Source of the DNA: Bacillota bacterium
Lineage (GTDB): Bacteria; Bacillota; Clostridia; UBA1381; UMGS1253
Direction: 5' to 3'
DNA: 40,242 bases
Assembly: GCA_022706785.1 (NCBI GenBank)
Contig: JAKJBW010000018.1
Location: 1-40,242, forward strand
The stretch's first letter is position 1, and every line of letters begins with the position of its first letter. The position numbers were made by a program, and so were the translations under genes. Below the pieces are notes generated by a model. That model was not told the DNA's origin. It saw only the letters and a program-made list of their open reading frames with translations, and ran no database searches. Positions 2,479 to 35,459 of the stretch are shown in pieces.

Positions 2479-2946
2479 CTATACGCCAAACCCGTCCCTG
2501 AGCACGGTGGCCGCCTTGTCGGCATCCTTCGCATCCACCAGAAAGGCTATCTCTGTTTCACTTGTGGTGATCAGCTTGGCTTCTATCATGCTTTGCGCCA
2601 GATGTCCGAAAACCGCCGCCGCAACCCCCGGCGCATCACGCATGGCTTCACCGTGCAAGGTAAGCTTGACATTGCCGGCGTTCACCTGCGTAGCATGATC
2701 GCCCAGCACCTTCTGAAACCTTCCCAGGATTTCAAGCGTTTTTGCAAAATCCCTGTCTGAAACGGTAAAGGAAACCACCGTCGTATCCTTCTGGTCAGGC
2801 AAATAGCTGATCATGTCTATGTTTATCCCAGCGCTGCCCAACGCGTCAAACACTCTGGCAACGCTGGTGATGCCATTGGGCATATTACCCACTGTAATCA
2901 TGGAAATATCGTCTGCGATCCATAAATCCGTGATACTCCTAATCAT
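2479..2946 (-). CDS. Stand-alone double ACT-domain protein (aspartokinase regulatory-subunit-like)
   Basis: This 155-residue protein consists of two ACT domains (about 14-80 and 92-155) and nothing else. The second half, with its GVAAAVF and TTSETEIAFLVD stretches, closely resembles the C-terminal regulatory half of aspartokinase, which binds lysine or threonine. The catalytic kinase domain is absent. A strong AAAGGAGG ribosome site precedes the ATG. The gene is last in the asd-dapA-dapB operon, 44 nt after dapB. In Bacillus the beta subunit of aspartokinase II is a similar separate polypeptide, but it is made from an internal start inside lysC. I infer that this protein senses a pathway amino acid and may regulate an aspartokinase encoded elsewhere. 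Binding to another operon product cannot be excluded. Confidence 0.8.
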   Translation of the reverse strand: MIRSITDLWIADDISMITVGNMPNGITSVARVFDALGSAGINIDMISYLPDQKDTTVVSFTVSDRDFAKTLEILGRFQKVLGDHATQVNAGNVKLTLHGEAMRDAPGVAAAVFGHLAQSMIEAKLITTSETEIAFLVDAKDADKAATVLRDGFGV

Positions 2947-2990
2947 GGAAACCTGCCTCCTTTCAGCTTCTATACTAACGCTGTGTCATG

Positions 2991-3749
2991 CTATATCTGA
3001 CTGACAAGATCCTTCATGCTATACAGACCTGCCGCCTTGCCCGCCAGAAACTTTGCCGCACGTATTGCGCCTACGGCAAACACTTCTTTGGACGTTGCCT
3101 GGTGCTTGATCTGGATAACCTCATCGGTTCCCGCAAAAAGCACCTCATGCTCCCCCACAATGGTGCCGCCGCGGACAGCATGCAGACCGATTTCACCAGC
3201 GGAGCGTTTTTTTCGAGACGAGTGGCGGTCATACACATAGGCGGGACGGCTGGCAAGCGCGTCTGAAATCGCATCAGCGATGGCAAGCGCTGTTCCGCTG
3301 GGCGCGTCAATCTTTTGGTTGTGGTGCTTTTCTATGATTTCAATGTCAAAATTGCCCTCTAAAAGCTTGGCAGCCCGCGTCGCCAAATCAATGATAAGAT
3401 TTACCCCCAGACTCATATTGGCTGAGAAGAAAATCGGAATCTTGCCGGAGGCATGGTGCAGCCGCTCAATCTGCCCGCCCGACAAACCTGTTGTGCAGAC
3501 CACAGTTGGGATCTTACGACTCATCGCAAAGCTGAGCAGCTCGCCCAGCCCGTCCGGATGCGAAAAATCGATAATGACATCCGCACTTCCCCCGAAAGCG
3601 TCTGCATCGGTGTAGACCGGGTATGGGTTTTTTCTTGAATCATTGATATCAAACCCGGCAACGATACCGATACCTTCCTCTTGCTCAACAAGACGCGATA
3701 TCACCTGGCCCATCTTGCCGTTGCAGCCGCTTAGCAGTATTTTTAACAT
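2991..3749 (-). CDS. dapB: 4-hydroxy-tetrahydrodipicolinate reductase
   Basis: DapB reduces the DapA product with NAD(P)H in the cytoplasmic diaminopimelate/lysine pathway. The 252-residue length fits the family. Residues 8-15 (GCNGKMGQ) form the nucleotide-binding turn. Residues 140-154 carry the family signature E-K-HH-N-x-K-x-DAPSGTA, with the catalytic His pair at 142-143 and the substrate-binding Lys at 146. It follows dapA in the same direction, but the 143-nt gap between them holds an R1 repeat (3835-3894), which may tune transcription into dapB. In a sporulating cell the same pathway also supplies dipicolinate for the spore core. Confidence 0.96.
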   Translation of the reverse strand: MLKILLSGCNGKMGQVISRLVEQEEGIGIVAGFDINDSRKNPYPVYTDADAFGGSADVIIDFSHPDGLGELLSFAMSRKIPTVVCTTGLSGGQIERLHHASGKIPIFFSANMSLGVNLIIDLATRAAKLLEGNFDIEIIEKHHNQKIDAPSGTALAIADAISDALASRPAYVYDRHSSRKKRSAGEIGLHAVRGGTIVGEHEVLFAGTDEVIQIKHQATSKEVFAVGAIRAAKFLAGKAAGLYSMKDLVSQI

Positions 3750-3834
3750 GCTTTCACATCCCTTATCCTTGGTAAGTCGAAGCTTTTCTTATAACGGCAG
3801 GAAATACGCCATTTTAGCATATTTCCTGAGTTTT

Positions 3835-3894
3835 AAAAAAGTTTACCTTACAAAGTGAGCGTCGCGAACATTTGCTGCCGAAGGCAACTTTTTT
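3835..3894 (-). repeat. R1 intergenic repeat, copy 1
   Basis: This 60-bp element has imperfect terminal inverted repeats (AAAAAAGTTTACCTT at the left, AAGGCAACTTTTTT at the right) and a small inner hairpin (GCTGCC/GGCAAC). It matches the reverse complement of 6088-6148 at about 55 of 61 positions. The right end overlaps the stop codon of dapA. Flanking A- and T-runs give it the form of a bidirectional terminator or attenuator between dapA and dapB. Confidence 0.8.
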
Positions 3895-4780
3895 ATTTTA
3901 ATGCCAAACCGTAGTCTGTCAACGCCTTTTTCAAGATCTCAAGGTTGCCGGACTCCATTTCGCACAACGGCATTCGAAGATCACCCACGCCAAAGCCCAG
4001 CAAATTCATGGCAGTTTTGATCGGAACAGGGTTGACTTCAATAAACAGCTTGCGGATGAGGTCAAGTGTCTTAAGCTGCAGCGCAGCTGCCGCTTTTGTA
4101 TCGCCGTCTAAATAAAGCCGGCACATATCGTGTATCTGAACCGGGATGATATTGGCCGCAACGGAGATGACGCCCAGCGCGCCCACCGACATGGCGGGAA
4201 TAATGATATCGTCATTGCCCGAATAAATATCTAAGTCCGGTATTTCGGCCGCGATTCGCGACAAATAAACCAGGTCGCCGCTTGCCTCTTTGATGGCGGT
4301 AATATTTTCTATGCTGGCAAGCTCACCAAGCGTCTCTATAGAAACGCAAAGGCCCGTTCTGGATGGGACATTATAAATCACCACAGGAATATGTACGCTC
4401 CCGGCAATCTCCCTGTAGTGGTAATAAAGTCCTTTCTGAGTTGTCTTGTTATAATACGGCGTAACCACCAAAATTCCGTCCGCACCGCAGTCTTGCGCAT
4501 ACACGCTCAGTTCAATCGCATGGCGTGTGTCGTTGGAGCCGGTGCCCGCAATCACAGGGATTCTGCCCGCCGTCTTCTCCACCGCATACGCAATCGCCGC
4601 TTTGTGCTCCGGGTCGGGCATGGTGGACGCCTCGCCTGTTGTGCCGCATATGATAATGGCATCTGTCTTGCTGGCGATATGCCATTCGATCAGCTCGCCG
4701 AGCTTTTCAAAGTCTATGCCATCCTTGGTAAACGGGGTCACGATCGCGACGCCCGAACCGGTAAACAATGTCTTTTTCAT
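3893..4780 (-). CDS. dapA: 4-hydroxy-tetrahydrodipicolinate synthase
   Basis: DapA condenses pyruvate with aspartate semialdehyde, the first committed step to diaminopimelate and lysine. The 295-residue length is typical. GTTGE at 46-50 binds the pyruvate carboxylate, Tyr136 sits in YNVPSRTG, and the Schiff-base Lys164 sits in the AIKEASGD motif. The gene lies 134 nt after asd in the riboswitch-controlled operon. That gap holds a hairpin (ATAAACC/GGTTTAT, 4891-4911) and a TATAAT box (4846-4851) with only a weak -35, so a secondary promoter for dapA is possible but not convincing. The stop codon is overlapped by R1 copy 1. Confidence 0.96.
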
Positions 4781-4914
4781 GCTGCCATCCCCTTCTTTAC
4801 TGATTTGCCCTCCCGCCCCGGCAGGCGCAAAAAAGTCTCTGCTATATTATATGTCTGTTTTATTCAAGTTGTAATCACTGCCTGCAAACAATAAACCATT
4901 GCCCGGTTTATGCA

Positions 4915-5994
4915 TCAGTCAAAATAGCCTTTCGCTGCCAAAAGCTCCGCCATCAGCACCGCTCCGCCTGCCGCGCCGCGAAGCGTATTGTGCGATAAGC
5001 ACACAAATTTCAGATCGAACAGGCTATCGCCCCTTGCCCTGCCGATAGACACAGCCATACCTTTTTCCAACTCACGCTCGGTTTTAGCCTGCGGACGGGC
5101 CGGATCTTCGAAGTAGTGCAAAACCTGCTTAGGCGCCGACGGAAGGTTAAGCTCCTGCGGCTCGCCTTTGTAGCTGCGCCATTTTTCTATTACCTGCTCC
5201 ACCGTGGGCGGGTTTGCAAACGACACAAACACCGCGGCCGTATGGCCGTCTGTGACAGGCACGCGAATACACTGGGTTGTGATTGCAGGCTCTGTGGCGG
5301 GCACAATCACATCACCTGCGATGCTGCCCCATATCTTCATAGGCTCTGTTTCGCTCTTTTCCTCTTCACCGCCGATGTAGGGAATGATATTATCCGCCAT
5401 CTCGGGCCATGTCTCAAAGGTTTTGCCCGCGCCCGAAATCGCCTGATAGGTACATGCCGCCACTGCCTTGATACCGAATTCCTTCAGCGGATGCAGCGCC
5501 GGCACATAACTCTGCAGGGAGCAGTTTGATTTTACCGCAATAAACCCGCGTTTTGTGCCGAGCCGTTTGCGCTGCGCGTCAATGATGCAGGCGTGGCCGG
5601 GATTGATTTCGGGGATAATCATGGGGACATCCCCGACCTGTCTGTTCGCCGAATTGTTGGAGATGACGGGGCACTCGAGCCTGGCATAGCTTTCCTCAAG
5701 CGCTTTGATCTCATCCTTTTTCATATCTACCGCGCAGAATATGAAGTCAACCGCACCGGCAATGATTTCCTTGTCCGCCTCCGCGTCCAACACAACCATA
5801 TCCTTAAGCTCAGCAGGGACAGGCGTACTCATAGCCCACCTTTCGCCCACAGCCTGGCCGTATGTTTTGCCGGCAGAACGCGGCGACGCCGCCAAAGCAA
5901 CCACGTTAAACCAGGGATGCCCGCTCAAAAGCGTCGCAAACCGCTGCCCTACCATTCCCGTTGCACCCACAATGCCTACTTTATAGCTTTTCAT
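4915..5994 (-). CDS. asd: Aspartate-semialdehyde dehydrogenase (archaeal/fungal type)
   Basis: Asd reduces aspartyl phosphate to aspartate semialdehyde, the branch point to lysine, threonine and methionine. I place the start at the ATG at 5994, giving 359 residues, because GGAG lies 9 nt upstream; the in-frame TTG at 6009 is less likely. GATGMVGQ (10-17) is the NADP-binding turn. The catalytic Cys158 sits in SNCSLQ, and His251 in RVPVTDGHTA is the acid/base. These motifs and the overall length fit the archaeal/fungal-like branch better than the usual enterobacterial one. It is the first gene of the operon and lies behind a lysine riboswitch and an R1 repeat. Confidence 0.94.
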   Translation of the reverse strand: MKSYKVGIVGATGMVGQRFATLLSGHPWFNVVALAASPRSAGKTYGQAVGERWAMSTPVPAELKDMVVLDAEADKEIIAGAVDFIFCAVDMKKDEIKALEESYARLECPVISNNSANRQVGDVPMIIPEINPGHACIIDAQRKRLGTKRGFIAVKSNCSLQSYVPALHPLKEFGIKAVAACTYQAISGAGKTFETWPEMADNIIPYIGGEEEKSETEPMKIWGSIAGDVIVPATEPAITTQCIRVPVTDGHTAAVFVSFANPPTVEQVIEKWRSYKGEPQELNLPSAPKQVLHYFEDPARPQAKTERELEKGMAVSIGRARGDSLFDLKFVCLSHNTLRGAAGGAVLMAELLAAKGYFD

Positions 5995-6087
5995 AATAAT
6001 CTTCTCCAATCATATCATAATAAATTTTGCGGCAACACCTTTTTCACGTCTCCCCCGCCCTGCAAAGCGCTTTGGGGAAACAAATAT

Positions 6088-6148
6088 AAAAAAGTTGCCT
6101 TCGGCAACAAACGTTCGCTGCGCTCACCTTTTTAAGGTAAACTTTTTT
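6088..6148 (+). repeat. R1 intergenic repeat, copy 2
   Basis: This 61-bp element is the inverted second copy of the R1 repeat at 3835-3894, with about 90 percent identity. It has A-run and T-run ends and an inner perfect GTTGCC/GGCAAC hairpin (6094-6108). It lies in the leader between the lysine riboswitch and the asd start codon. Confidence 0.8.
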
Positions 6149-6159
6149 GATTTTCCGTC

Positions 6160-6181
6160 ATTACTACCTTTGGGTAGTAAT
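6160..6181. other. Perfect 9-bp hairpin in the asd leader
   Basis: ATTACTACC (6160-6168) pairs exactly with GGTAGTAAT (6173-6181) across a 4-nt loop. It lies between the riboswitch terminator and R1 copy 2. There is no clear T-run on either strand, so its role is unknown. Confidence 0.5.
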
Positions 6182-6196
6182 TTCCTTCAAATTAAC

Positions 6197-6223
6197 AAAA
6201 AGCACCGACTACGAGCCGCTGCC
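6197..6223 (-). terminator. Riboswitch expression-platform terminator upstream of asd
   Basis: On the minus strand an 8-bp stem (GCAGCGGC with GTCGGTGC, one mismatch and one wobble pair) is followed directly by TTTTTGTT. It starts about 30 nt after the lysine aptamer, as expected for a transcription-terminating lysine riboswitch. A shorter AGGCG/CGCCT hairpin (6232-6247) lies between them and could take part in switching. Confidence 0.6.
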
Positions 6224-6254
6224 ATAAGTTTAGGCGAAAAAACGCCTGTCTCTA

Positions 6255-6436
6255 TAAGCAAATAGCTCTCCACCGCAAGGCTGCGGTGACAGTTGCACGG
6301 CTGTTAACCATACCCCCAGGCATCAAAGCGGACGGACGCTTCAACCCTTCGGCGTTTGCCCCTTTCGTGCCAGACTCCAATCGACCGCCGCCGGTCTTGT
6401 CTGACCCTACTGATGAAAAACGCGCCTCTATCATTA
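6255..6436 (-). promoter_or_regulatory. Lysine riboswitch (L-box) controlling asd-dapA-dapB-ACT
   Basis: The minus-strand leader contains the conserved L-box blocks in the right order: GATAGAGGCGCG (at 6432-6421), an AGTA block, GGGGCAAACGCCGAAG, then GACAG-type and GGAGAGCTATTTG blocks near 6261-6272. The first and last blocks pair through GATAG/CTATT to form P1. Known lysine riboswitches bind L-lysine and stop transcription of lysine synthesis or uptake genes. The position between a promoter and asd, with a terminator just downstream, fits an OFF switch in high lysine. Confidence 0.88.
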
Positions 6437-6442
6437 TTTTAT

Positions 6443-32513: not shown

Positions 32514-33902
32514 TTAAAACGCAGCATTGCCTGTCGTACGCGGATAGGGTATCACATCGCGGATATTTCCCATGCCGGTGATATACATGATCGCCCGCTC
32601 AAAGCCAAGGCCAAAGCCTGCGTGCTTGCAGCCGCCGTAGCGGCGCAAATCCAAATACCACCAATAGTCGTCTGCGCAAAGTCCCAGCTCCTGCATACGG
32701 GCCTCAAGCCGCCAGAGCCTTTCCTCCCTTTGGCTTCCGCCGATAATCTCACCGACGCCCGGAACCAAAAGGTCCATAGCAGCCACCGTTTTGCCGTCGT
32801 CATTCTGACGCATATAAAACGCTTTGATATCCTTAGGATAATCTGTCACGAATACAGGCTTTTTAAAAACCTTTTCGGTAAGGTAGCGCTCATGCTCGGT
32901 CTGCAGGGCAGCTCCCCACGGAATTTCATACGCAAAGCCTTCCTTGCTTTTGCCCAGTATTTCCACCGCTTCGGTATAACTGATGCGGATAAAATCACTG
33001 TTTACAATGCCGTATAGACGTTCTGAAAGGCCGTTATCCACATGCTTATCCAAAAATGCAATTTCCTCGGGCGCATGTTCCATACAGTAGCTTATCATAT
33101 ATTTAAGCATATCCTCCGCCAGCGCCATGTCGTCTGCAAGATCTGCAAATGCAATTTCCGGCTCTATCATCCAAAACTCCGCGGCATGGCGGGCCGTATT
33201 GGAATTTTCCGCCCGAAACGCAGGCCCGAAGGTGTACACATTGGCAAACGCAAGCGCAAAGGCTTCCGCCTCCAGCTGGCCGCTCACAGTCAGCCCTGTG
33301 CGCCTGCCGAAAAAATCCTTTGCATAGTCAACCCCGCCTGTTTCACAAACGGGCAGATTTGCAGCATTCAACGTTGAAACGCCAAACATCTCACCCGCAC
33401 CCTCACAGTCATTGCCTGTGATGATAGGCGTGTGCACATAGACAAAGCCGCGTTCGTTAAAAAATTTGTGAACGGCATACGCGGCCAAAGAGCGTATGCG
33501 AAACACCGCCGAAAATGTATTGGTACGCGGCCGCAAATGCGCCACAGTGCGCAAAAATTCCATAGAGTGCCGCTTGGGCTGGATAGGATAATCGGGCGCG
33601 GACGCCCCTTCAATACCGATTGATGAAGCTTTCAGCTCAAAAGGCTGCCTGGCCTCGGGCGTGAGCAGGAGCATACCTGTAACACAGACTGCCGCACCTA
33701 TGTTTAAACGGCTGACTTCGTCAAAGTTTGCCAAGCTGTCATCAAATACCACCTGAACAGTCTTAAAAAAAGAGCCGTCGCTCAGCTCAATAAAGCCGAA
33801 GTTCTTTGAAACGCGCAGATTGCGGACCCATCCCGCCGCTGCTACATTCCTATCCAAAAAGCGCTGCGCATCGTAAAACATTTGTCTGACAGAGGTCCTC
33901 TC
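32514..33902 (-). CDS. asnS: Asparaginyl-tRNA synthetase
   Basis: A class IIb synthetase that charges tRNA-Asn. With the GTG at 33902 it has 462 residues and starts [16 protein letters not shown] lies eight bases upstream, which favours it over the GTGs at 33914 and 33917. An OB-fold anticodon-binding domain (about 15-105) has [19 protein letters not shown]. Motif 2 is [21 protein letters not shown] and motif 3 is [29 protein letters not shown]-box leader is not seen upstream. Confidence 0.95.
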
Positions 33903-34277
33903 CACTGTATACACCACCTATAATTCAGTGAACACAGGCGCATTTGCCCGTATGCGCATAAACAGCGCCCATATCTTACCATCGCTTTATATTTTAGAAA
34001 GGATCCGTCTCCCCTTACATTACGCCTTTCTTGGCACTGTAGGGAATAAACGCATACATTTCTATATATTAAATCATAGTTTAGCCAGTTTGTCCATATT
34101 TATTAAGAAAAATTTTCCCCTGTAGGCAGGATACCCCAGATGCGATAATTAGCCCGACAAAAGGTGGTATTAGAGCAAAATCCGGAAACGCGCGAAATTT
34201 GTCGATATTCTGTAAACCTGCCTGTTTTCAACACTTTATGGGCAGGATGTACTTTACGGCCGATATCTGGTTACATC

Positions 34278-34338
34278 TGTGGATAAAGTGGATAACTGTG
34301 TGTATAAGTTGTATTATGGCATTTTTCTCTGTGGATAA
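34278..34338 (-). promoter_or_regulatory. Cluster of DnaA boxes
   Basis: Within 61 bp there are three exact matches to the DnaA box TTATNCACA, read on the minus strand, at 34278-34286, 34299-34307 and 34330-34338. A fourth with one mismatch lies at 34287-34295, directly abutting the first. All have the same orientation. The DNA to the right is AT-rich. It could titrate DnaA, control replication or regulate the flanking genes. No dnaA, dnaN or rpmH gene is nearby, so calling it an origin is not justified. Confidence 0.6.
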
Positions 34339-34439
34339 CTTAATTGCATTAACCCATTATGTACCTTTTTGTTGACATAATGCATCCATTCTTTTGCAGA
34401 TTAAAAAACATAACGCTAATACGCAATAAAATCATCCGG

Positions 34440-34469
34440 TTTACTTCTGATAAGCTGTTGTGGTATAAT
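34440..34469 (+). promoter_or_regulatory. Predicted promoter of the EamA transporter gene
   Basis: TTTACT (34440-34445), an 18-bp spacer and a perfect TATAAT (34464-34469) lie about 115 bp before the gene. Confidence 0.5.
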
Positions 34470-34583
34470 AAATGCGATTGCGGCGCAATTATGGTATAAT
34501 ATCAAAAAACCGTTTAACGGACTAAAGTACCCCTGACATATGTCGCTGTGTCCTGAAAAATTCACTGCTAAGGAGCGCACACC

Positions 34584-35459
34584 GTGAAAAAAGCCTTATT
34601 CTACATACTTCTGACATCCGTTGTTTTTACAACTTTAGAACCTATCAGCAAGCTTATCGCGGCTCAAGTCAGCCCTTTAAGCATCACTTTCTTGCGTTTC
34701 TTTATTGGCGGCGCTATTCTGCTGCCGTTTTCTGTGGCAAGGATTAAAAAATATAACATAGTCCTTGGAAAAACAGATTATCTTGCCATGGCCCTGCTGG
34801 GGGTGCTTTGCATCTGCGTCAGCATGGTGCTGCTGCAATATGCGGTCTTAAAAGCGGCCTCTCCCGCACTCATAGCCATTATTTTTTCATCCAACTCCGT
34901 GTTTACAGTCCTTTTCGCAGCGGTTTTGCTGAAAGAAAGGATAACTTTAATAAAGGGCTGTGCCGTCGTTTTATGCGTGAGCGGCGTGCTGGTCTGCGCC
35001 GATTTCAAGTCGGGCGCAAGCGCGCTATCGGTGCTTCTGGCACTGCTTTCCGCACTCACCTTCAGCCTGTACACCGTCTTGAGCAAGAAGTTTATGACCA
35101 AGGTCAGCGGCATTATTCAGACCGGTTTCTCGTTTTTTGCCGGAAGCCTTGTACTGCTCACAGCGCTTCTTTTTATGGGAACCGGTGTGGTGACAGACAT
35201 TCACCCGGGCAGCCTGTGGCATTTATTATATTTAGGCATTTTCGTCACCGGCATAGGATACTGGTCGTATTTCAAAGCCATGGAACACGCATCGGCCATG
35301 GCGGCGTCATTAGTGTTTTTCATAAAACCGATTCTCACGCCGTTTGCCGCTTTCTTTATCAATGGTATTGTGCCCGATGTCAGGGTATTTATTGCGCTGG
35401 TTTTGGTTGTGGCGGGCTCATACCTGGCGACTGTAAAGCCAAAAAAAGCCGTGCAATAA
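34584..35459 (+). CDS. EamA/DMT-family transporter
   Basis: The 291-residue protein starts at a GTG with AAGGAG eight bases upstream. It has ten hydrophobic segments in two repeated EamA halves (about 5-137 and 148-285), with conserved FLRF near the first and YWSYFKAMEHASAMAASLVFFIKPI in the second. DMT members export amino acids, metabolites or drugs; the substrate cannot be told from sequence. It stands alone. Confidence 0.9.
   Translation: MKKALFYILLTSVVFTTLEPISKLIAAQVSPLSITFLRFFIGGAILLPFSVARIKKYNIVLGKTDYLAMALLGVLCICVSMVLLQYAVLKAASPALIAIIFSSNSVFTVLFAAVLLKERITLIKGCAVVLCVSGVLVCADFKSGASALSVLLALLSALTFSLYTVLSKKFMTKVSGIIQTGFSFFAGSLVLLTALLFMGTGVVTDIHPGSLWHLLYLGIFVTGIGYWSYFKAMEHASAMAASLVFFIKPILTPFAAFFINGIVPDVRVFIALVLVVAGSYLATVKPKKAVQ

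Follow-up and report, generated by a model that had tools for sequence, protein, structure and literature searches.

A cluster of predicted DnaA boxes outside the replication origin, between divergent asnS and EamA-family genes, in a Clostridia genome

The window, meaning the whole stretch of DNA that was analysed (40,242 nucleotides), is the complete contig C18 of a genome (G000) of 2.03 Mb in 52 contigs that is 91% complete. The organism is a spore former with SpoVAD and GerA-type germination genes, and the relatives of its asnS are Clostridia. A run of closely packed DnaA boxes lies between two divergent genes of the window, with the following features:

32514-33917, minus strand: asnS, a class II tRNA synthetase of the D/K/N type; the array is located upstream, about 360-420 bp from the start codon
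33918-34583: intergenic region of 666 bp between the divergent genes, delimited by the start codons of the longest ORFs
34068-34096, minus strand: candidate asnS promoter, TGGACA-17-TTTAAT, a consensus match only
34278-34286, minus strand: DnaA box 1, TTATCCACA, exact
34287-34295, minus strand: DnaA box 2, TTATCCACT, one mismatch, abutting box 1 in a 9-bp register
34299-34307, minus strand: DnaA box 3, TTATACACA, exact, starting 12 bp from the start of box 2 and 21 bp from that of box 1
34330-34338, minus strand: DnaA box 4, TTATCCACA, exact, 31 bp start to start from box 3
34440-34469, plus strand: candidate EamA promoter, TTTACT-18-TATAAT and a TG ahead of the -10, a consensus match only
34584-35459, plus strand: EamA-family transporter gene; the array is located upstream, about 245-305 bp from the start codon

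The initial annotation had described a 681-bp gap with AT-rich DNA on its right; the size is corrected here to 666 bp, and the right side is indeed moderately AT-rich (AT content 0.64-0.70 in 50-bp bins over 34300-34499), with a higher value in the left bin 34050-34099 (0.72). No Rfam match was found near asnS, so that a structured asnS leader is without support and was rejected; the sole match is a lysine riboswitch at 6255-6438 (minus strand), upstream of a run of lysine-biosynthesis genes (window 2479-6438: aspartate-semialdehyde dehydrogenase, DHDPS, DapB and an ACT domain). Within the asnS coding sequence, an exact box and a near box stand 12 bp apart on the plus strand (33034-33054).

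The array at 34278-34338 is made up of four minus-strand boxes, three matching TTATNCACA exactly and one departing from it at a single position, and the box coordinates confirm the earlier count of three perfect and one near-perfect box in the same orientation within 61 bp. Dinucleotide shuffling of the gap, repeated 20,000 times, never produced three exact boxes in 61 bp, and at the observed box rate triplets of this density are expected 3.6e-4 times in the 2.03 Mb genome. The DnaA-box pattern occurs 103 times in the whole genome versus 58 times for the reversed control pattern, and by this control the earlier estimate of one box per ~30 kb by chance is about right. The boxes of the array are clustered beyond chance.

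The dnaA, dnaN, recF and gyrB genes were identified on contig C16 from translations and a DnaA profile, and the initial description of the cluster as far from dnaA is borne out, with dnaA and oriC on C16 and the array on C18. GC skew flips sign at the dnaA-dnaN-recF-gyrB locus. Upstream of dnaA come two plus-strand boxes and then two on the minus strand, with 11 and 12 bp between the starts of the last three, and this layout is common to G000, G001 and G002, which represent three genera of one family (L002:3248-3344, L162:1322-1417 and L163:651-734). Because of the skew flip and the recurrence of the box layout in G001 and G002, the C16 locus is the replication origin. The canonical box-recognition stretch, GREFGGRDHTTVMHA, is present in the translated DnaA of G000; the residues that contact the bases of the box are described in PMC7561715. 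A profile search for a YabA homologue found none in G000 (91% complete). Elsewhere on C16, a pair of exact TTATACACA boxes that face opposite ways at a spacing of 30 bp lies just upstream of a small ORF resembling a helix-turn-helix regulator (L003:1474-1512, corresponding to C16:28473-28511).

Among 100 of the 103 exact boxes, the only clusters of same-direction exact boxes outside oriC are the window array and one at C16:69997-70121. The latter has three exact and several near boxes, is flanked by genes for a PPIC-type isomerase and an S-layer-homology protein, and is ~67 kb from oriC; C18 is unordered relative to C16. A count over 61 genomes of the order gave 58 tandem pairs in which the gap is at most 30 bp, versus 3 for the reversed control. 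Their spacing is far from uniform, with 12 bp in 17 of the 58, 11 bp in 7 and 21 bp in 7, by a test that assumes independent hits; its p-value is only indicative, since some pairs overlap and some genomes are related. An alignment of eleven arrays (also of non-independent hits, and thus indicative) gave the common core TGTGGATAACTnTGTGGATAAnGTGGATAAC; the window array, with box starts 9, 12 and 31 bp apart and 21 bp from the first to the third, has the 9 and 12 steps in reverse order.

Thirty loci, most of ~3 kb, were fetched around the tandem pairs, and dnaA was present in only one. Clusters adjacent to trmK were found in six genomes of family f4 (G006, G008, G024, G028, G050 and G058), with serS on the opposite side wherever scanned and dnaA 3 to 31 kb away in the four genomes checked. 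The cluster is dense, with up to ~10 exact and near boxes (L146/G008, L150/G024 and L151/G006; L119, L124 and L131), and in family f4 it has the look either of a conserved DnaA-box cluster close to oriC or of a section of the origin region itself. Two family f4 genomes (L166:1367-1492 and L165:2799-2864) have boxes downstream of dnaA, towards dnaN, as in a bipartite origin. Tandem boxes adjacent to radA occur in G014, G018, G044, G055 and G059 (L117, L123, L129, L132 and L137), and clusters adjacent to hisD in G004 and G007. Both trmK and radA clusters were rejected for G000, in which trmK has a single exact box, located where its coding sequence begins, and radA no more than a near-box upstream. 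The same-family genomes G001-G003 contain no tandem pairs anywhere.

The position of the window array is not shared by the relatives sampled. A conserved gap sequence was rejected, as 60 related genomes gave no DNA match to 33918-34583. Within 800 bp upstream of asnS at 109 related loci (a few shortened by contig ends and a few duplicates of one genome), two or more boxes were found in none and one exact box in six. Close homologues of the EamA gene were found in only five relatives, and the cluster is absent upstream of all five. As far as sampled, the asnS/EamA position thus appears particular to this lineage. The initial annotation had tied its reading in part to conservation of the boxes in close relatives; at the level of family and order they are not conserved at either gene, in a sample of relatives that included three same-family genomes (G001-G003) and none of the same genus.

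The array is probably a DnaA-box cluster (DBC) outside the origin, of the type found in Bacillus subtilis, which would bind and titrate DnaA and may have a local effect on transcription. This reading is favoured by the exact, clustered boxes, the genome-wide excess of boxes, the canonical DnaA, the C16 cluster, the recurring spacing and the trmK and radA arrays; against it stand the unconserved position at asnS and EamA, the lack of tandem pairs in G001-G003 and the number of boxes, which is only four. DnaA would bind the tandem boxes cooperatively, aided by the 9-, 12- and 21-bp registers, and the main effect would be to hold DnaA away from oriC, keeping initiation sensitive to free DnaA. The window array and the C16 cluster together would form a reservoir that lowers free DnaA, and transcription of asnS or the EamA gene may be affected secondarily.

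B. subtilis has six DBCs outside oriC, and their joint deletion leads to early initiation (PMC5295017, PMC13220808). Like the window array, they pack several consensus boxes outside oriC beside ordinary genes, with more than one cluster per genome (Okumura et al. 2012, as cited in PMC5295017 and PMC13220808). Unlike them, the window array is at asnS/EamA, which are not the B. subtilis loci, and no YabA homologue was found in G000. A further point against the DBC reading is that the effect of the B. subtilis clusters is described for oriC-proximal ones, and the contig of the window array is unordered relative to oriC. The initial interpretation is supported in part: among the four roles that the initial annotation had offered, namely a titration site, a DnaA-reactivating site, a second origin and a DnaA-regulated promoter, titration fits best, a second origin is disfavoured, and regulation of asnS or the EamA gene is possible, with boxes unconserved at both.

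Control of asnS or the EamA gene, positive or negative, by DnaA at these boxes, in the manner of sda and other B. subtilis genes, is rather unlikely as the explanation of the array. In B. subtilis, sda is activated by DnaA, which appears to act as a repressor of ywlC, vpr and others (PMC4447404), and the two genes that diverge on either side of the array have candidate promoters ~180 bp (asnS) and ~100 bp (EamA) from it; one weak promoter-like match, at 34289-34317, overlaps the boxes. The best candidate promoters, however, are clear of the boxes, the promoter scan is near the shuffle expectation (4 vs 2.8), and the boxes are unconserved upstream of asnS (109 loci) and EamA (5 homologues). The sda promoter array of B. 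subtilis resembles the window array in placing multiple DnaA boxes upstream of a gene, and there DnaA is a transcription factor; it differs in that the window array is flanked by asnS and an EamA transporter gene, with boxes conserved at neither in relatives.

We regard it as very unlikely that the boxes are a chance cluster, or the sites of another regulator, with no role for DnaA. Such an explanation would accord with the unconserved position and with the ~58 of the 103 genome boxes that are expected from composition; against it stand the shuffles and the recurrence of the spacing registers in other genomes.

A DnaA-inactivating or -reactivating site like E. coli datA or DARS, altering the nucleotide state of DnaA, has a remote chance of being correct. 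A small array of DnaA boxes would suit it, and no YabA homologue was found in G000, so that control of initiation must rest elsewhere. Against this, IHF sites are required by datA and DARS2, and a flanking element by DARS1 (PMC4585315), and B. subtilis has no known regulator that converts DnaA between nucleotide states (PMC5295017). E. coli datA is likewise made up of clustered DnaA boxes at a distance from oriC and could reduce the amount of free active DnaA, and DARS1 and DARS2 likewise have a core of about three DnaA boxes; datA, however, has an IHF-dependent element and promotes ATP hydrolysis, and the DARS sites have flanking, IHF or Fis elements and act by nucleotide exchange, whereas the features recognised in the window array are its DnaA boxes.

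A second or auxiliary replication origin, for which the clustered boxes and the moderately AT-rich DNA to one side of them could be cited, is almost certainly not what the array represents: on two of the comparisons that the initial annotation had proposed, GC skew in the window is negative on either side of 34.3 kb and the opposed-box oriC layout of G000, G001 and G002 is absent, so that a second origin is unsupported, and furthermore the dnaA-dnaN-recF-gyrB locus with its skew flip sits on C16, housekeeping genes surround the array, and no initiator gene was found among the window genes scanned. A plasmid origin was also rejected, the gap having no match in 72,556 plasmid records and its neighbours being housekeeping genes.

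The array is most likely of a kind already known, an ordinary Firmicutes cluster that soaks up DnaA or tunes a gene, and not a second origin. It adds a statistically solid array of predicted DnaA boxes outside the origin for an uncharacterised Clostridia lineage, and the consequence of this single locus is modest. A broader proposal, that the recurring 9/12/21-bp array at shifting sites is a main brake on initiation in the YabA-less lineages of the order, with the window copy particular to its lineage, is improbable on the present data. The comparison across the order suggests that such arrays keep their box spacing yet sit at different loci from one lineage to another, a pattern relevant to the way initiation is limited in Firmicutes that lack E. 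coli-type regulators.
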